A stretch of DNA of 36,020 nucleotides from a virus. Positions 547 to 33,620 of this stretch are shown here, piece by piece. The number at the start of each line of letters is the position of its first letter. Position 1 is the stretch's first letter. The position numbers and the translations under genes are program-made. The notes under the pieces are model-generated. The model saw only the letters and a list, made by a program, of their open reading frames with translations, made no database searches and had not been told where the DNA came from. Location of the stretch: positions 1 through 36,020 of IMG/VR virus record IMGVR_UViG_3300044974_000516. One strand, given 5' to 3'.

Positions 547-1930
547 CCCGCTGCCATGGCAGGCCGAGTTCCTGCGCGCGGGTCTGAGTGGTGAGTGGCC
601 ATCAGATGCGGCGGCGGTCCGTGGTGGCTTGGGCTCGGGCAAGTCACTCGCGCTCTGTGCTCTCGCCATCCTACTTTGCGAGACTCGCCCCGGCGCGCTG
701 GTGGTCGTCGGCATGGACACGTTCAGGCGTTTGCGTGACGTGCATCTACCGCATCTGCACGGCCTGCTCGCGGGCTCGGCCGTAACCTACGCGGCGTCCG
801 AGCAGGCGTTCGTCTGGGCGTCAGGGTCGCGGCTCCTACTTGCTCACCTCGACACCCCGGCGAACTCTGGCCCCGGCTCGTCACCTATCGAGGGTCTGAA
901 CGCGCACGCCGTCCTCGTGGACGAGTGCCAAGTACTGCGGCCTGACGTGCTCGACGTGGCCCGGTCGCGTGCTCGTGTACCTGTGGCCGACCAGCGCGGC
1001 CAGATGCAGCGGCCCGTCGTCGTGACCTGCGGCATCCCGGTCGAGCCTGCGTGGTGGGTAGAACGAACGCGGGAGATAGGCGGCGAGGCTTACCTGCCGC
1101 AGTCGTCGGAGAACGCGCAGCACCTCGGGGCGGGATGGCTTGAGCGCATGCGTGAGACGCTGAGCGACCGTGACTTCGCGGCCCTCGTGGAGAACCGGCC
1201 GCTTCCCCCGGTTGGGTCGGTCTTTCACGCGTGGGCGCCTGAGAAGTGCGTGACGCAGGAACTGGTCGACTACAGCTACATGCGGACCATGCTTGCGATG
1301 GACTTCGGTCTAAGGCATCCGTGCGCGCTCCTGCTTGTCGAGCTCACGCGCGGTCGGTGGCACGTGACCCGAGAGTGGGCGCCTGACGACGAGACGCTGC
1401 CCGACTTCCTTGCGCGACTCTCCATCGAGTGCACGCCTCGGCGACTGTGGCAGCAGGGCAGTCAACGCATCCCGCTCGACGCCGTCGTGGCTGACCCTGC
1501 AGGCGGCGCGCGCTCGGCTCAGACCGGCATCGCTGACCTCGACCTCGTGGCGCTGTCGCCTCCCAAGGGGCTGGGCATCATGCCCCGCATCGAGCGCGAC
1601 CCCGAGCGGCGGGACATCGTCAGCGGTTGTACTCGCGTAAACCTCGCCCTCGAGCGCGGCGCTCTGACGGTCGACCGTGCGCTTTTTGACGCGGGCATCC
1701 GAGCGCCTGCCAGCAAGCGCACACTCGCCAAGGCCATGACCGGCTATCGCTGGGACGACCGCGCACCTGGTCGACCTGCCAAGGACGGGACGCACGACCA
1801 CCACGCCGACACGCTGCGGTACGCCGTGCGCGAGGTGTTGTGGTATCTGCCCGACCCGACGCGGCGCGAGGCAGCGCCTGCAGCTCCTGAGCGTAGGCGT
1901 GTCGAGCTCGACCCGATGGACGTGCGCTAA
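524..1930 (+). CDS. terL: Terminase large subunit (packaging ATPase and nuclease)
   Basis: This 468-residue protein would power DNA translocation into the prohead and cut the concatemer. Walker A is GGLGSGKS at residues 34-41 and Walker B is VLVDE at 130-134. The C-terminal RNase H-like nuclease is marked by acidic residues D260 (AMDFG), D324 (VVADPAG) and D429 (HHADTLRYA), the usual triad pattern of phage terminases. An upstream in-frame ATG at 488 exists, but ATG 524 (MPRISELDPLPWQ) places the ordinary terminase N-terminus first and gives the short overlap seen between neighbouring genes. The stop at 1930 is followed within 3 bp by the -35 box of the downstream RNA promoter. Length is normal for the family. 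Confidence 0.93.
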   Translation: MPRISELDPLPWQAEFLRAGLSGEWPSDAAAVRGGLGSGKSLALCALAILLCETRPGALVVVGMDTFRRLRDVHLPHLHGLLAGSAVTYAASEQAFVWASGSRLLLAHLDTPANSGPGSSPIEGLNAHAVLVDECQVLRPDVLDVARSRARVPVADQRGQMQRPVVVTCGIPVEPAWWVERTREIGGEAYLPQSSENAQHLGAGWLERMRETLSDRDFAALVENRPLPPVGSVFHAWAPEKCVTQELVDYSYMRTMLAMDFGLRHPCALLLVELTRGRWHVTREWAPDDETLPDFLARLSIECTPRRLWQQGSQRIPLDAVVADPAGGARSAQTGIADLDLVALSPPKGLGIMPRIERDPERRDIVSGCTRVNLALERGALTVDRALFDAGIRAPASKRTLAKAMTGYRWDDRAPGRPAKDGTHDHHADTLRYAVREVLWYLPDPTRREAAPAAPERRRVELDPMDVR

Positions 1931-1932
1931 GC

Positions 1933-1960
1933 TTGACGCGCTCGAGGAGCGTGGTATCGT
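1933..1960 (+). promoter_or_regulatory. Extended -10 promoter driving the terL-downstream RNA
   Basis: The -35 box TTGACG (1933-1938) and -10 box TATCGT (1955-1960) are separated by 16 bp, with an extended -10 TG dinucleotide (TGg at 1952-1954). It begins two bases after the terL stop codon. Transcription would start near 1966, which is the first base of a 9-bp closing helix, so promoter and RNA fold agree in position. Confidence 0.7.
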
Positions 1961-1965
1961 GCCTC

Positions 1966-2090
1966 ATCTCCTTCGCCGGTGACTCAGGGGCTTTGCTCAT
2001 TTCACCCTGACGAGCCGGGCCGGTCCAACCCGTGGCAGGGGAGGGAGATAGACCCTCGGGCGCATAAGCGCTCGGGGGTTTGCCTTTTTA
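1966..2090 (+). ncRNA. Predicted ~125-nt structured RNA next to terminase
   Basis: No coding frame fits, but a complete transcription unit is visible: promoter at 1933-1960, structured body, intrinsic terminator at 2053-2090. The predicted fold is a three-way junction. Helix P1 pairs 1966-1974 with 2041-2049 (9 bp, one G-U). P2 pairs 1978-1982 with 2002-2006 and has an inner 1988-1991/1995-1998 hairpin. P3 pairs 2016-2019 with 2029-2032 around a 9-nt loop. I do not recognise a known riboswitch, 6S, tmRNA or SRP signature. Its place beside terL invites comparison with the phi29 packaging RNA, but no homology is claimed. It could instead be a regulatory RNA or a leader attenuating the portal operon. 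Confidence 0.6.
2053..2090 (+). terminator. Intrinsic terminator after terL and the predicted RNA
   Basis: An 11-bp stem pairs 2053-2063 with 2068-2078 (two wobble pairs) around the loop ATAA. It is followed at once by a T-rich run (TTTGCCTTTTTA, 2079-2090). This is a textbook Rho-independent terminator. It would end both terL read-through and the short RNA. Confidence 0.85.
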
Positions 2091-2181
2091 TGGGGGCGGC
2101 CCTAACCTGCGAGTCAAGCGTGTGTCGTGGGATGGTCTCGCGGCGCATGTGCTGAGTCTAGGCCTCGCCCCCGGCCATTCT

Positions 2182-2305
2182 TTGACAGCGCGTCTCCTCT
2201 CCGCGGACTAGCCGCGGCCCCATTGAAGCTCGACAATGACCAGGCGACGCCCGGACCGTCTAGCGATTTCCGCGGACTCCGGTCCGTGGCCCCATTGAGA
2301 CGCGC
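2182..2305 (+). repeat. Tandem hairpin repeats enclosed by 9-bp inverted repeat
   Basis: A consensus-like TTGACA (2182-2187) is followed by GCGCGTCTC (2188-2196), whose exact reverse complement GAGACGCGC lies at 2297-2305. Between them are two related units 69 bp apart. Each begins TCCGCGGACT, forms a GC-rich dyad (2201-2206/2212-2217 with loop ACTAG; 2270-2277/2282-2289 with loop TCCG and one G-U) and ends GGCCCCATTGA. The dyads differ by 3 bp in loop and arm length but keep both flanks. It may be a structured RNA or a pair of protein-binding operators. No convincing -10 box sits at 16-18 bp from the TTGACA. Confidence 0.6.
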
Positions 2306-2438
2306 GACTCTTTGCACTCCCCCCGTCAGGACCAAGGCTCGCGGAGTCCCGGCCAGACCATCGGTAGACGGTCCCGCTGGGCGCCTTGAGCACTGACCGT
2401 GCGTGTCTTGGCGGGGGCGTGCGTTTTCTAACGCGCTG

Positions 2439-2454
2439 TGCTAGGGTGCCGCTC
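2439..2454 (+). promoter_or_regulatory. Leaderless extended -10 promoter for portal operon
   Basis: TGc followed by TAGGGT (2442-2447) lies exactly 7 bp before the portal ATG at 2455, and no Shine-Dalgarno sequence is present. The same arrangement (TGn, TAGGnT, 7 bp, ATG) recurs at 7951-7966 and 29510-29525. Transcription would start at or next to the A of ATG, giving a leaderless mRNA. Confidence 0.65.
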
Positions 2455-11892: not shown

Positions 11893-12134
11893 CATGGCTG
11901 GCGGTCGACATGTACGACCGCGAGCGGTGGAGCGTGGTGTGTCCCGAGCACGAGGCGCGGTCCCTGTGGGTGCATCGCGTGGTCGAGGCTTTCGAGGCGA
12001 CGCGGGCGGGGCTGCGCCTCGAGGACGTGGTGCCCGATGCCACGGCGGCCGTGGTCGAGGGCGTGCTACATCTGGCGCGCGCGCTGCGCGAGGCTGAGCA
12101 CGCAGAGGTCGAGGTCGCAAGGAGGAAGCGATGA
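11314..12134 (+). CDS. Tail assembly chaperone GT via -1 frameshift
   Basis: A -1 slip at CCCAAAA (11739-11745) joins the first 144 residues of G to a -1 frame that continues SARAVLDWLAWAG and runs to a stop at 12132-12134, giving about 273 residues. The -1 frame is open well before the slip site and codes for a globular, aromatic-rich domain, whereas the competing zero-frame tail is low complexity. The T part has a CGTC-x4-C cluster and a later CPEHEA, a possible metal site. Its end overlaps the tape measure start by four bases. This matches the lambda G/GT arrangement, where the fusion recruits tail tube subunits to the tape measure. Confidence 0.78.
11739..11745 (+). promoter_or_regulatory. 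-1 ribosomal slippery site CCCAAAA
   Basis: The heptamer fits X-XXY-YYZ (C CCA AAA) in the zero frame, and re-pairing in -1 gives CCC AAA. It is the only sequence I found in the overlap that satisfies the rule. The shifted frame yields the sole plausible continuation into the T domain. Confidence 0.78.
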
Positions 12135-13786
12135 GCGTCACCAACCTGCAGATTGCAGTCAAAATCGAGGGCGCCGACGAGGCAGCCAGCAAGCTGCAGC
12201 GCGTCGAGAACGCTGCGGACGAGGTCGGCAAGAAGTCAGAGAAGGCAGGCGGCCTGCTGGCTGGCTTTGAGTCTGGCGTCAAGAAGCTCGACGACGCGGT
12301 CGACAAGGTCGAGCGACCCATGCGCACGTTCAGCGGCGCGCTCGACATCGCCTCTCTAGCCCTCGGCGTGGGGTTGGCTGGTCCGCTCGGGCAGGTCATC
12401 AGCCAACTCATCGAGTTCGGCGGCGTGGCTCTCGACGCTGCGCGGTCCGCTGGCATCTTCGCTCGGTCGAGCGAGGAGATTGCCAACAACATCCGAGACG
12501 TCGGCAAGGCTGCGACGTCGTCACAGGAGGACGTCACAAAGTTCTACGCGGCCATCGCTGCGGGTGCGCAGGGTCAGGGCGCCACGCTTGAGCAGCGCGC
12601 TCTCATCGAGCGCACAGGCGTGTCTCTGGGCGGTCTGCGCAAAGAGCTTGCCGACCTGCAGCAAGGCATCACCGAGGCCATCGCCACGCAGGCCGAGGCT
12701 CGGCGTATCATCGCCTCAACGACCGAAGACCTGACGCGGCAAGTTGGGCCGGTGCGCTCTCGGGCAGAGGGTGAGCGGCTGCGCCAAGAGCGGAAGGTCG
12801 CGCAAGACGAGTTGCAGCGAGCCATTGGGCTTGAGCAGACCTTCCGCAGTTCGGCAATCAATCGTCAGGACACCATCGACCGCCTGACGCGGCAGACGAC
12901 GGAGGCTCTCGGGGCACAGACTAACGCGCAGAAGGCAGTCACTGCGGCAAAGGTTGAGGACGTCAAAGTCACCGAGCGCGCGACTAGGGCAACCCGCGAG
13001 AGCACCGAGGCAATCCAAGCGGAGATCGAGCGACTCAAGCAGGCCGAGTTCGACCGAATCACTGCCAAGGTCATCGCAGAGGAGCGAGCACGCATCGAGT
13101 TCGAGCGGTCGTCAACGCCTCTCGCGTTGGCCGAGGGTCTGCCGGTGCAGGGTCCGACGCTGCAGGAGGCGCTGGGTGACGTCATTGGCCCTGGCGCACC
13201 GGCAGTCAAGACGATCTCCCCGCTTGAGGAGAGCCTCAACAGCCTGTCCGAGTCTGCGATGAACCTGGAGTCGATGGGCGTGGGCGCGCTGCAGTCGTTC
13301 AGCCAAGCGGCAGGGCAGGCGCTCGCGTCACTGGTTATCGACGGCGACAAGGCTGCTGGCTCGTTCAAGAAGCTGGCGGGCCAAGTGGCTGCGGGCTTGA
13401 GCGCGCAGGCGTTCGGCTACGCTGTATTCCTGACAGCGCTCGGTGTCGCTGCGACGCTCGCTCCTGTAGCACTTGGCGCCCTCAACCCGAGCGGCTTGTT
13501 CGCGGGTGCTGCGGCCATGGCGGGCACCGGCCTCCTGCTCGGCGTGACGGCGCGGGCGCTGGGTGCCTCGACCTACGGGCCAGGGCAGTCGTCGCAGTCT
13601 GCATCAGGCGCGGCGGGTGGAGCTCAAGACCGCGTGTCGTCGTTCTCGGCGGGCGGTGGTGGCGCGCAGCCGATGCAGGTCACGGTCGTGCTCGGTGTCG
13701 ACGAGGTGTCCAATGTCCTCGTCCGGCAGTCGCAGCGCGAGTCCCGCGCTGGTAGTCTCTCCTCGTCACGATTGGCGGTGGTCTAA
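12131..13786 (+). CDS. Tape measure protein
   Basis: This 551-residue protein sets tail length and guides tube assembly. It is strongly helical: VKIEGADEAASKLQRVENAADEV at the N-terminus (a typical tape measure opening, quoted only in part), hydrophobic segments near 78-110 and 425-475 that may insert in the host membrane at ejection, and a Gly/Ser/Gln-rich patch near 480-510. It starts at ATG 12131 after a strong AAGGAGG. At about 0.15 nm per residue, the usual tape measure relation, it predicts a tail near 80 nm, short for a siphophage. The next gene's start overlaps its stop. Confidence 0.82.
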   Translation: MSVTNLQIAVKIEGADEAASKLQRVENAADEVGKKSEKAGGLLAGFESGVKKLDDAVDKVERPMRTFSGALDIASLALGVGLAGPLGQVISQLIEFGGVALDAARSAGIFARSSEEIANNIRDVGKAATSSQEDVTKFYAAIAAGAQGQGATLEQRALIERTGVSLGGLRKELADLQQGITEAIATQAEARRIIASTTEDLTRQVGPVRSRAEGERLRQERKVAQDELQRAIGLEQTFRSSAINRQDTIDRLTRQTTEALGAQTNAQKAVTAAKVEDVKVTERATRATRESTEAIQAEIERLKQAEFDRITAKVIAEERARIEFERSSTPLALAEGLPVQGPTLQEALGDVIGPGAPAVKTISPLEESLNSLSESAMNLESMGVGALQSFSQAAGQALASLVIDGDKAAGSFKKLAGQVAAGLSAQAFGYAVFLTALGVAATLAPVALGALNPSGLFAGAAAMAGTGLLLGVTARALGASTYGPGQSSQSASGAAGGAQDRVSSFSAGGGGAQPMQVTVVLGVDEVSNVLVRQSQRESRAGSLSSSRLAVV

Positions 13787-23541: not shown

Positions 23542-23596
23542 ACCGACAAGCCTAGCAATCGGGGCGTGCTCGCTGACGTGGGCGCGCCCTTTTAGT

Positions 23597-25081: not shown

Positions 25082-25637
25082 CGACAAGCGCATCGGCACG
25101 GCCGACAACTACGCCATCAGCGACGCGGCCGAGGCTGCGCGTGCGGCCTACAGCTACCGCAAGACGCCCGAGTACGAGACGTGGCTGCAGGAGGTCGCGG
25201 CGTGGCGGCGCTGCGGCATGGACGGTCCGCAGCCCCCGGCGCCCGACCTGAGCCAAGGCCTGCAGGAGTACCGCTACGGCGAGCCGACGCGGCGCGTGTC
25301 GGTCGACCTCTGGCGCGAAGACCTGCGCGGCCTCGACCTGCGGGACATCCCGCGCAGCACGTACGGCGCGACCGTGCGCGACAAGTGGCGCATCCTCGGC
25401 ACAGTCCTGCCGGGGCGCGACCAGATCGAGCTCGGCGCGTTCGAGCTCGCGTCGGTGATGACGCGGTTTATGCTCATGGAGCTGGGCCTGCGTCGTGGCG
25501 GCGATGCGGGCGACGCGTACAACGACCTCGTCGGCGAACTGTACGGTCACGCGCTCGAGGCGGCGCAGAAGATGGTTGAGCACCTGCTCACGGCCGACAT
25601 CGAGTCAGGCCTCAAGCGGCCCACGGAGGACGCATGA
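25074..25637 (+). CDS. Early protein of 187 residues, unknown
   Basis: This gene has its own promoter, leader hairpin and Shine-Dalgarno (AGGAGA), and so is probably well expressed. The sequence is soluble and charged: an N-terminal helical part (AISDAAEAARAAYSYRKT), a Pro-rich stretch around residues 52-60, then VSVDLWREDLRGLDLRDIP and a helical C-terminal region (ELASVMTRFMLMELGLRRG; EAAQKMVEHLLTADI). I recognise no family. The stop overlaps the helicase loader start by four bases, suggesting a role in replication, but nothing in the sequence shows it. Confidence 0.65.
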   Translation: MSDDKRIGTADNYAISDAAEAARAAYSYRKTPEYETWLQEVAAWRRCGMDGPQPPAPDLSQGLQEYRYGEPTRRVSVDLWREDLRGLDLRDIPRSTYGATVRDKWRILGTVLPGRDQIELGAFELASVMTRFMLMELGLRRGGDAGDAYNDLVGELYGHALEAAQKMVEHLLTADIESGLKRPTEDA

Positions 25638-26383
25638 AGCCCATCGACCCCAACGACCTGAGCAAGTACCTCGACCTCGACGCGCCCACGGTGCCTCGTC
25701 CGCATCTGGTCCCGCTGTCGTGGCATGACGTCGAGCTCCACAAGACCGACGACGGCCTCTGCGCGTGGCGGTCGTACACCTGCCCCGTGTGCTGCGGCAC
25801 CGAGAGGCACACGAGGACGGGCGAGCGCTGCCAGTGCGCGGGCATCGGGGCGCGCATGCGGCGCCTGACCTTGGCGCGCATCCCTTGGACCTACCATCAC
25901 ACGACCATGGACGACCTGAGCCCCGAGGGGCGCGCGTGGGTGGAGAGCTACCAGCCCGAGGGCAAGGGCCTGCGCTTCCTCGGCTCGACCGGGCGAGGCA
26001 AGACGCATCGCATGCTCTGCGCAGTGCGTGGCCTCTGCGAGCGCGGCATCTCGGCGCGGTACGTCTCGTGGGCGCTGTGGCTCGACGACATGCGGCAGGC
26101 GATGGGGCGGGACGGCGACATGGCAGCGCTCAAGGCGCGCATCGAAGGGCCTGCAGTCGTGGCGCTCGACGACATCGGGCGAGAGCGTGACACGGACTGG
26201 GCGCAGTCGCAGCTCGACCAGCTGCTCGAGCGGCGCACGCTGTCGGGTGGTACGGTGCTCATCGCGTCGAACCTGACGGACGAGGGGCTTGAGATGCACC
26301 TGGGCGACCGGCTTTGGTCGCGCATCAAGGCGAGCACGCGGCCGGTGGTGATGACGGGCAAGGACTGGAGGGCGGCCAAGTGA
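25634..26383 (+). CDS. DnaC-like helicase loader ATPase with zinc finger
   Basis: This 249-residue AAA+ protein would load the host replicative helicase at the phage origin. A zinc-binding cluster lies at residues 50-68 (CPVCC ... CQC). Walker A is GSTGRGKT at 117-124, Walker B is VVALDD at 175-180, a sensor-1-like ASN is near 216, and a GDRLWSRI segment with a probable arginine finger is near 229-236. The order matches DnaC/IstB-type loaders. It starts with an ATGA overlap after the 187-residue unknown protein. No helicase or polymerase gene is visible, so the phage probably recruits the host replisome. Confidence 0.82.
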   Translation: MKPIDPNDLSKYLDLDAPTVPRPHLVPLSWHDVELHKTDDGLCAWRSYTCPVCCGTERHTRTGERCQCAGIGARMRRLTLARIPWTYHHTTMDDLSPEGRAWVESYQPEGKGLRFLGSTGRGKTHRMLCAVRGLCERGISARYVSWALWLDDMRQAMGRDGDMAALKARIEGPAVVALDDIGRERDTDWAQSQLDQLLERRTLSGGTVLIASNLTDEGLEMHLGDRLWSRIKASTRPVVMTGKDWRAAK

Positions 26384-30056: not shown

Positions 30057-30507
30057 GGTGGCAGCAGTGGTCGCGGCTGTGGCGATGGTCGGCGCGGTCC
30101 CGGTGACGGGCTCGGCGCAGGACGCCAACGGCATCTACGGCAACGTCTACGGCTGCGCGGTGGTCGCTCCGACCTCGGCGGCGTGGACGCAGATTGCCTC
30201 GTCGGACATGAAGGACACCTCGACCGGCACGGCGCTGTCGGCGGGCTTGTTCCTCTCGTCGCTCTCGCTGGTCTCGCGTGATGCGTGGGGCGGTAACGCC
30301 TCGTTCATCTGCCTCGGACCGGCGGCGAGCTGCCCCGCAGCGACGACGAACGCGCCCCGCCTCGACGCTGGCACGGCCAAGAGCATCGAGGTCCGTGGTG
30401 TCCTGAGCGGGACGGCGCAGAGCAGCATCACCACGCTGTCGCTCAAGGGCTCGGCCGTTGGTGCGTCGAACGTCGAGGTCTGCGCCCACTACCGGAAGGT
30501 GCCGTGA
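30049..30507 (+). CDS. Secreted protein with Sec signal peptide, unknown
   Basis: This 152-residue protein starts at ATG 30049, 8 bases after GGGAG (ATG 30043 would add two residues). It begins with a Sec signal peptide: basic MRK, hydrophobic [14 protein letters not shown] and a cleavage site after GSA at residue 23. The mature part is small, Ser/Thr/Ala/Gly-rich and has four Cys (YGCAVV, FICLG, AASCP, EVCAHY) that could form two disulfides in the periplasm. Sandwiched between endolysin and tail fibre, it may act at the cell surface, for example against superinfection, or be a virion protein exported for another reason. No family is recognised. Confidence 0.68.
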
Positions 30508-33500
30508 TGGCTGGCACGACGACGACTTTTCCCGGCGCTCCTGGTCCGGCTGGGCCGGCTGGTCCCGAGGGTCCCGAGGGTCCGCAGGGGCCGGTTGGAC
30601 CCGAGGGTCCTCCTGGGCCGCAGGGTGACCCCGGCCCGCCTGGGCCTCCGGGCGACCCGCAGACGCCCTACGCGAGCACGCCTGCCAACATCGGCACGGC
30701 TAGCGCGGGCTCGTCCGACGACTACGCGCGCGGCGACCATGTCCACGCGGCGGCGCTCGCGGACCTGTCTGACGTGGCCTCGACGGCTCCGTCCTCGGGC
30801 GAGGTGCTGACGTGGTCGGGCTCCGAGTGGGCGCCTGCTGCGGCGACAGGTGGCTCAGAGGCGGTGTTCGCAGGCGCGCTCACCGTCTACGTTGACCCGG
30901 TCAACGGCACGGACGCTCCTGGTGGTGGCACTCTCAGCGCACCATACGCCTCGATCAACTACGCCTACTCGCAGGTCACGTCGCTCGGCAACCCAAGCAA
31001 CAGCACCTACAACGCAAGCGTCGGTCAGTTCGTCACCGAGAAGTTGATCTTCCAACTTGCGCCTGGTCGCTACGTGGAGGACGTCACGCTCGGCTTCAAG
31101 CGTGCGCGCGTGCAGCTGATTGGTAATGGCGTGCAGATTGTCGGCAACGTGAAGATGTCGGCAGTTCGCGCGGACTTCCCCGCGTCCAGCATGGAAGCAC
31201 TCAAGGCCAGCTTCCCTGCGCCGTGGGCGGGCGTTTCGGCGCAGATGACTTTCGAGATCACGGGTGAAGCCGGCGGCGGCGTCGAAGCCGACACGACCGC
31301 AGACCCGCTCGTCGTCACGGGCCTGTCTTCTCTCGCCTTTGAGGAGTCGGCGTTCGCGGGCAGTGGCGTTGGGTCCAACTGGGACAACAACTACGGCCAG
31401 TTCAACTTCTACGCGAACAAGGCCAACCTGATTGGCGGCATGGTTCTCGGCACCAGCTATACGGTACCGACGACCAACGGGCTCCCCACGTCCGTCATGG
31501 AGATTGACGGCTCCACGGTTGGCGAATCGGGATTCGTCCGTAGCTACATCGGCGCGGTGCCTTATGCCTACGTGTCGAGTCCGTCGACGTGGAGCAACGG
31601 TACAGGGCAGGCCACTGGCACGCAGAGCGGCACGACGCTCCAAGACACGACCAAGGCGTGGACGGTCAACCAGTACGCGGGCGCCACGGTCAGTCTGACC
31701 GGAGGGACGGGTTCAGGCCAGACTGCCACGGTCGTCTCCAACACCGCGACGACGCTGACGCTGTCGACGACTTGGGGCACGACGCCGGTCGCCAATAGCA
31801 CCATCTACTCGCTGGTCGGCACGGCCAATAAAGCGCCTACGGGCACGATCACACTCAAGTGCCACAACTCCACGCTGGCTGCTGCGCTCGGCCCGCGTTT
31901 GACGCTCGGCGAGGTTGACGGCTGCCGCATCTACGACATCGACCGCTCCATGCTCGGCACCGTCGACAATGGCGCCGTCACTGGCTCGACGTCGACTTCG
32001 TACATCGGATTCGTGGTCAACCAGTTCCGCGTCTACTCGGGCACCGGCGTCCCTGCGTCGCAGTACCGCATCGGTTCTTCCTCGAGCGGCACTCGGTACA
32101 AGATGGACTCGACGTCATACACCACGCTCGCGTTCAGCCGAAACTCGTCAGGCGTGCTCTCTGCGCGCACGCTGAACCCCGCGACAAGCTCGGGAACGGC
32201 AACGGGGGGCGCAGCGACAACGATCACGGACACCAGCAAGGCGTTTACGACGAACCAGTGGACGGGCGGCACGATCACGCTGACGGGCGGCACCGGATCG
32301 GGGCAGACCCGGACGGTCTCGTCCAACACCGCGACTGCCATCACAGTGTCTCCTGCGTGGGCGATCAATCCCGCGGCGGGTACGACGTACACCGTCACTG
32401 CTCTCGTTGCTTTCGACTTCCTCGACGAAGCGCGCTCGCTGGCGTACACGCCAACGACGAGCGCCAACTGGTCGACCGTGCCTGCGACGGTCGGCGCGGG
32501 TTTGGATTCGCTCGCGTCGGACAAGCAGCCTGTCGATGCGACCCTGACTGCGCTCGCTGGGTTGGCCACGGCTGCTGATGCTCTGCCGTACTTCACCGGC
32601 ACTGACGTCGCATCGACGACGACCCTGAGCTCGTTCGCGCGCACACTCATCGACGATGCGGACGCGGCGACGGCTCGCACGACGCTGGGCCTCGGCACCG
32701 CGGCGACGCAGAACAGCACGGCGTTCCAGTCGGCCGACGCGACGCTGACGGCCCTCGCTGGTGTCACCACGGCGGCGGACAAGCTGCCGTACTTCACCGG
32801 CGTCGACACAGCGGCAGTCGCGGACATCACCACGGCGGGTCGTGAGATTCTGTCGACCGCCTCGAGCGGGACCAACGGGCAAGTGCTGACCAGCTCGGGC
32901 GGCGGCGCTCCCACGTGGACGACGGTGTCGGGTGGCGGTGGCTCTGGTCTCCCGACCTCGCAGAGCTGGACCATCGACTGGCGCCCGACCTCGGTCGCCT
33001 ACGCCACGCTCGCGGCCTCGGGCTGGACACTCGTCAACCTGACGAGCAACGGGCTGTTCGCCGACACAAACGGCAACATCTACGAGGAGTTGGTGCAGAC
33101 CGGCGTCACGTCGATTGGCTACTTCTACCCGACCGCGCTGACGGTTCAGAACAATCAGCCGTGGGAAATGGAGTGGGACGTCTGGACGTCGCTGCTCGAT
33201 GGTTTCGTCACGCTGCAGGCCAACGAGGGCGCAGGCGCGGGCAACTATCGGTGGCGGATGCTCTACAACACGACGACCGGCACCCCGGCTGGGTCATGGC
33301 AGGCGCAAGGCCCCTCGGGCGGTGTGTCACTCAGCGCGCCGTACGATGTGCAGACCAGCTCTCGCATCATCATGGGTATGCAGAGCGAGCCGCGCGCAAG
33401 CCGCGCGTACTACGCAAACGGCGCGTGCGTCGGTCTGCTCAACCCCAACGGATGCGCCGCGGGCGACAACACGAACGTCCCCGGCAAGTACCTGTTCGGC

Positions 33501-33620
33501 AACTCGTCGACCAGCGCCACGGCCTTCACGCTGCGCGTCTACGGCGCCCGCGTCCTTCATGGCTCGCGCGGCTCCGCCCCTCCCTATGCCCGCAACATCT
33601 GGCCCCCGGTGCAACCATGA
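30507..33620 (+). CDS. Collagen-like tail fibre / receptor-binding protein
   Basis: This 1037-residue trimeric fibre candidate starts at ATG 30507. Residues 10-51 form fourteen Gly-X-Y triplets, a collagen-like stalk as in several phage fibres. [24 protein letters not shown] is a motif widespread in phage fibres. Two related beta modules occur near residues 366 and 562 (T-x-K-A-(W/F)-T-x-NQ ... [10 protein letters not shown]). Two LTALAG-type fibre repeats lie near 675 and 748 ([26 protein letters not shown]). The C-terminal 225 residues look like a lectin-type beta sandwich ([16 protein letters not shown]) and probably contact the receptor. Codon use and composition vary along the gene, with several less GC-rich patches, consistent with modular exchange. 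Confidence 0.85.

Follow-up and report, generated by a model that had tools for sequence, protein, structure and literature searches.

Phage accessory genes are usually sought as proteins, and morons, the autonomous accessory cassettes of phages, carry protein genes. In lambdoid phages, the leader at the late promoter consists of the promoter, a short structured RNA and a terminator ahead of the late genes. The packaging RNA of phi29-type phages is a small multi-helix molecule that forms a required part of the motor and is therefore kept in close relatives. In the Gifsy-1 prophage, IsrK has been described as a case in which one promoter yields two products, a short RNA that is terminated and a read-through transcript, the latter being the mRNA that leads to the antiterminator AntQ (PMC4825925). 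Mini-CRISPR arrays borne by viruses have also been reported (PMC6858448), as have repeat-like RNA anti-CRISPRs, or Racrs (PMC10651486).

The locus presented here offers three structured RNA candidates together with a mini-CRISPR array. It belongs to a 36,020-base record of an uncultured phage (IMG/VR IMGVR_UViG_3300044974_000516), which in its entirety is referred to as the window. In the window, terL occupies positions 488-1930 and the portal gene is next downstream. The minimum-energy fold of the whole gap between these two core genes resolves mostly into successive, separate stem-closed domains, which are designated modules B, C, D and E. Module B, the one adjoining terL, is probably an accessory phage tool that lies outside the packaging motor.

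Relatives were drawn from metagenomic contigs picked by TerL similarity. Two TerL searches of viral contigs returned 48 and 59 loci on mostly overlapping contigs, and the comparison set comprises 58 contigs, the window counted, in which both terL and portal could be placed. Left out of this set were L001 (a duplicate of the window) and L099 (a duplicate of L098), along with L038, L044, L048 and L049, for which terL or portal could not be placed. Among cultured phages, TerL was represented by 68 records with identities of 25-26% among the matches listed, and there was no DNA match to window positions 1930-2180. A TerL search for the host, performed without a positive control, was negative in 7 genomes at E<=1e-10 and in sets of 392, 347 and 329 at E<=1e-30. 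Elsewhere in the window, a large protein (30504-33620) carries a collagen-like repeat close to its N-terminal start (Pfam Collagen), and a 551-aa protein (12131-13786) is matched weakly to DndD by PADLOC (E 9.7e-05), possibly by coiled-coil similarity.

The original prediction placed a promoter of the form TTGACG-N16-TATCGT with an extended -10 two bases past the terL stop, and it is found as described at 1933-1960 on the plus strand. Since the consensus matches once in 10 kb against 0.6 matches expected by chance, the motif by itself is not significant. Across the relatives, the promoter pattern was detected in 41 of the 58 terL-portal gaps, and the 16-nt spacing is identical in all 23 distinct promoter rows amid diverged surrounding sequence. 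The -10 element reads TATCGT in all four versions of B. To describe this promoter as B's own is not quite correct, since it also occurs in relatives devoid of B, where it serves module C instead. In those phages, C starts approximately 6-7 nt past the -10 element, i.e. near the start site.

Module B corresponds to a predicted plus-strand RNA of approximately 125 nt (1966-2092), identified by its fold and, among homologues, by sequence patterns and a covariance model. Without its terminator, the domain spans 1966-2049 and begins at the predicted start site. The closing helix, P1 (1966-1974/2041-2049), encloses two hairpins. P2 (1976-2018) pairs 1976-1980 with 2014-2018 and 1984-1989 with 2005-2010, leaving an internal loop (GAC/CGA) and an apical loop rich in pyrimidines. 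The short P3 (2029-2040, paired at 2029-2031/2038-2040) is the weakest part of the domain and has alternative folds. With respect to the three-way junction that had been proposed, the layout of a 9-bp P1 at 1966 around two hairpins stands, but its folding energy is no better than chance. The domain without terminator gave z-scores of -0.72 in the window and -1.18, -0.66 and -0.47 in the other versions, and 62 to 140 of 500 shuffles folded equally well across the four, so that a strong three-way junction is not backed by energy. The whole piece has a z-score of -4.24, which must come largely from the terminator since the domain alone gives about -0.7.

Comparison of the four versions adds to this picture. 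RNAfold returns the same overall topology in each, with P3 variable, and the promoter, RNA domain and terminator hairpin follow in the same order in all four. The comparison of ten P2 pairs revealed five changes, each confined to one side and compatible with G-U pairing on the plus strand; read on the opposite strand, they would produce A-C mismatches, a pattern that favors an RNA of the plus strand. In a MAFFT alignment of the four versions, two pairs of P1 are changed on both sides. For B as a whole, 2 of 38 pairs are doubly changed; of 500 shuffles, 87 have at least as many, and with the partners slid by -1 the number rises to 4. Gaps or unpaired-type failures make up 6 of 150 cells, mainly in P1 and P3 of L027. 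The check put forward with the original prediction combined a covariance model with a test for covariation: the model returned known copies only, and the double changes did not outnumber those of the shuffled or slid controls. Because P3 differs among the versions and the sequence of the P2 apical loop is not conserved, no base-pairing seed is visible. From sequence, it is plausible that a discrete, structured RNA of about 125 nt is made that ends at the terminator, and its architecture is conserved.

The intrinsic terminator of B (2050-2090, plus strand) has a 14-bp stem (2050-2063/2068-2081), recovered by both folding and a stem scan, and a U-tract at 2085-2089. Stem and U-tract are in place as anticipated for a strong terminator after the RNA domain. 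A scan for stems of at least 12 pairs with U behind them picked out two sites in the window, 2049 and 23561, and 40 dinucleotide shuffles yielded no such stem. The second site (23561-23590) is another strong terminator-like hairpin on the plus strand. When 41 distinct gap sequences were examined, a terminator finder was positive for the terminator of B in the two sequences of the window type, in L097 and in L098; elsewhere, its only reports were a weak site in L011 and a site far upstream in the gap of L097. In L027, the U-tract is displaced and the finder is negative.

No Rfam family reached its gathering score in the window or in 13 relatives. At E<=10, the region 1925-2460 gave three sub-threshold matches, none of the packaging-RNA kind. 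Judged from titles and abstract openings, none of the papers listed was recognized as describing this RNA, and any novelty of B would rest on these together with the Rfam results. Three other identities for B were considered and rejected. The histidine operon leader (RF00514) scored 17.8 bits against a requirement of 49 (E 1.8). A leader peptide could be read in the window as an open frame from GTG 1980, and the start codon is missing in L097, L098 and L027. A hammerhead-like CUGACGAG, noticed by eye in P2, is lost in L027.

Module B is present in 7 of the 58 gaps, namely those of the window, L003, L041, L045, L097, L098 and L027. The copies in L003, L041 and L045 are identical to that of the window, and the collection searched contains four distinct B sequences only. 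In the remaining 51 gaps B is missing, including those of phages with 98-99% identical TerL, and it is therefore not needed for packaging. When viral contigs were scanned twice with patterns derived from B, only the known set was recovered. Likewise, a covariance model (R1) trained on the four distinct versions gave no convincing further copy in 63 sources and 23 whole records. R1 also gave weak matches (15-24 bits) on minus strands, in the distant relatives L034 and L037, and in L083, whose two alignments were inspected; these were taken as hairpin look-alikes.

Identities within the gap do not follow those of TerL. Between the window and L097, B is 91.8% identical and the TerL nucleotides are 69.6% identical, a lower bound with the ends counted. 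Between L097 and L027, TerL is 92.2% and B 57.9% identical, and between L028 and L013, module C is 96.4% and TerL 68.7% identical. In the distant relative L034 (4404-4560), and likewise in L037, a non-homologous promoter, a structured stretch and a terminator-like hairpin occupy the same place; this hairpin is visible in the fold and negative in the terminator finder. Given the discordance of B and C with TerL and the alternative unit in L034 and L037, the gap is best seen as a recombining accessory region, and in some relatives it has no evident protein gene. Examined as an autonomous RNA cassette, B has promoter and terminator flanks, the finder being blind to the terminator of L027, and combines patchy presence with independent exchange. 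At the level of sequence, these comparisons establish the anatomy of B, its conservation in four versions, its exchange as a cassette and its dispensability in near-identical phages.

Directly behind B, the window holds a short form of module C (2091-2173, plus strand). The covariance model for C (R2) was built from long forms only and gives a weak, offset match to the window (2072-2161, 25 bits, E 0.013), short forms of this kind scoring 20-30 bits (E 0.0009-0.14). Module C was recognized in 44 of the 58 contigs, including L097, L098 and L027, where it lies behind the B terminator and scores 72-89 bits; in 17 unrelated repeat-bearing contigs, the model found no match. Covariation is firm for the long form: 15 sequences exclusive of the window show 9 of 20 pairs doubly changed with 95.5% of cells paired, and none of 500 shuffles reaches the covariation score. 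Long forms (e.g. L019:3574-3677) hold a conserved GGCGAGUCAA motif, and the B of L027 also contains GGCGAGUCA. Behind C, in gaps such as those of L002, L012, L019 and L102, there are tiny hydrophobic frames with purine-rich sites upstream. As read by eye these end in, e.g., CHGGLYSII, and a loose expression for them was positive in 17 of the 58 gaps.

Module E, the third structured RNA candidate (2321-2416, plus strand), lies directly upstream of the portal promoter. Its covariation score exceeds those of all 500 shuffles; as for its other controls, 42 of 500 shuffles reach its count of doubly changed pairs and 419 of 500 its pair-type count. The portal promoter itself (2419-2447, plus strand) is conserved, non-standard and approximates GTGCRT-N17-(TGTGS)TAGNNT. 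A looser expression finds it in 54 of the 58 gaps (it is missing in L101, L102, L108 and L109), including gaps in which C and E are unrecognized, e.g. L030 and L034. The list of open reading frames starts the portal gene at TTG 2386, but for those of the distant relatives L034-L043 that have a portal match, the alignment begins at residue 24, corresponding to ATG 2455. This ATG lies 7 nt downstream of the promoter, and across relatives the start codon is 6-7 nt past the -10 element. With a start codon so close to the -10, the sequence argues that the portal mRNA is probably leaderless and independent of B. A role for B as a leader regulating the portal operon, as had been suggested, is set aside since the portal gene has a separate, conserved promoter.

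Module D (2188-2305, plus strand) is a mini-CRISPR array with repeats at approximately 2194-2229 and 2267-2301, a 37-nt spacer at 2230-2266 and a perfect 9-nt inverted repeat (2188-2196/2297-2305) that closes it. By eye, the first repeat is approximately 3 nt short and the second ends in GAGAC. The Rfam model CRISPR-DR16 matches the first repeat with 19.6 bits, short of the required 35 (E 0.077). Among the 119 stretches of genome contigs listed as matching the repeat core CCGCGGCCCCATTGAAGC, 62 contain arrays with 4 repeats or more, and 60 of these 62 have a median spacing of 70-74; the start-to-start spacing in D is 69-72. Examined as a virus-borne mini-CRISPR array, D has a bona fide repeat family at CRISPR spacing, and no cas hit came up when the larger window ORFs were run against PHROGs (20 queries), Pfam (10) and PADLOC (20). 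As an accessory RNA, D belongs to a known class.

Among the relatives, two repeats are present in 11 of the 58 gaps and a single repeat in two (L020 and L104). The two-repeat arrays examined (window, L016, L025, L027 and L028) each have the perfect 9-nt closing inverted repeat; the solitary repeat of L020 is without its left arm. Spacers differ between relatives. Those of L027 and L028 differ at six of their 38 positions, namely 1-3, 6, 9 and 12, and in sequence the differences at 6, 9 and 12 look as if they reflected two synonymous variants of one gene. Searched for protospacers in viral contigs, patterns from the L025 and L027/L028 spacers matched the arrays themselves only, and across 27 records the L025 pattern matched its own two records only. 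The spacer of the window was compared with the window and loci L001-L110 only; it has a 15-nt inverted match to module E. In reverse, the L025 spacer reads as a Walker-B-like RAASLVIIDELC, which is absent from the DnaC-like helicase loader of the window (25634-26383). In four unrelated viral contigs (L068, L077, L080 and L090), a half-repeat, a spacer and a half-repeat could be seen by eye within an outer stem, as if they encoded a single crRNA-like unit.

We prefer, at about even odds of being correct, to read B as an accessory cassette of non-coding RNA with an early end and some read-through, most likely acting in trans. As the most economical account, this would place B first in a unit made of RNA modules only. 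Host RNA polymerase would start at approximately 1966 from the conserved promoter and transcribe the P1-closed three-way junction. Most transcripts would probably end at the terminator near 2090 to yield the RNA of about 125 nt, and a fraction may read through into C, the mini-CRISPR array D, and E. The cassette, extending from the -10 element to the U-tract, lies between the promoter and C and is swapped among phages. As part of an accessory RNA island, its RNA would most likely act in trans on a target in the host or in a rival phage. We infer the transcription of B, its termination efficiency, its read-through and its action in trans; the case for read-through is that C is recognizable behind the terminator and that promoter patterns find no other promoter between B and C in the window. 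A broader proposal, which is rather doubtful, would treat the terL-portal gap as a site at which stem-closed RNA modules are exchanged (here B, C, D and E, all carried on one transcript), with B as an interchangeable "RNA moron" directed against host defense or rival phages and the island belonging to no RNA family.

The main rival draws on the same recognizable C behind the terminator and on a possible pairing between the 3' strand of P1 and the 5' arm of the terminator. According to this explanation, B would be a cis-acting attenuator, either riboswitch-like or protein-gated, that controls C, D and E: once P1 opens, GAGGG on its 3' strand would pair with CCCUC of the terminator arm and allow read-through. 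The GAGGG...CCCUC complementarity and the U.G pair of the terminator on which such a switch would depend are kept in all four versions, B lies directly between the promoter and C in each of them, and the lack of another promoter between B and C in the window is also in keeping with such control. However, the alternative hairpin has 5 pairs only to set against the 9-bp P1 and the 14-bp terminator, no conserved ligand pocket is visible between two B types that are 57.9% identical, and the portal gene has its own promoter. An attenuator is possible, if on the unlikely side. It may also be that only the promoter and terminator matter, insulating terL from the next unit, with the fold an incidental G+C-rich structure. 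A domain no stabler than its shuffles (z -0.5 to -1.2) and a terminator that ranks among the best-conserved parts would suit this view, but the same junction recurs in two sequence types and the changes are G-U compatible throughout the compared P2 pairs. We consider it unlikely.

The occurrence of a mini-CRISPR array in the same stretch, within an exchangeable accessory region, suggests yet another role for B as an RNA decoy against host defense, akin to the repeat-mimicking Racrs but of another shape. B did not behave as a Racr-like CRISPR-repeat mimic: queries with the array repeat gave no match in B, the Rfam CRISPR model matches D rather than B, and L097 and L098 have B without the array. 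A decoy role, also raised in the original prediction, is quite improbable. For a packaging RNA of the terminase-portal motor, one could cite the position of B next to terL and its multi-helix shape. The original prediction had entertained this role, and it does not survive the comparison of relatives, given the 51 of 58 gaps without B, some beside TerL of 98-99% identity; nor was a second copy of B present elsewhere in the records searched. A packaging RNA beside the terminase is thus a tempting reading that is unsupported and removed by the analysis, with next to no chance of being correct. Returning to the accessory cassette, if B and its neighbors are made as RNAs, this recombining gap would mark out a locus where RNA-based tools of phages could be sought, and the purpose of the region could be tested through the mini-array.

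Compared with the known systems, B is like the phi29-type packaging RNA only in its position beside packaging genes. Close relatives do without it, and the terminase and portal here are of other families. With the lambdoid late leader, B shares the sequence of promoter, short structured RNA and terminator; unlike the situation there, the portal gene here has its own promoter. The two-product scheme of IsrK resembles in layout the one proposed for B and differs in that the read-through product of B would be further RNA modules. Turning to D, its repeats matching bona fide arrays, its one spacer and the lack of cas genes among the scanned window proteins are like those of virus-borne mini-arrays and Racrs. 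In contrast to a Racr, D has two repeats and so is not a solitary unit, and its array is closed by an outer stem. Finally, B is like a moron in being a promoter/terminator unit set amid structural genes and absent in some near-identical relatives, whereas its cassette carries an RNA and its promoter also serves relatives that lack B.
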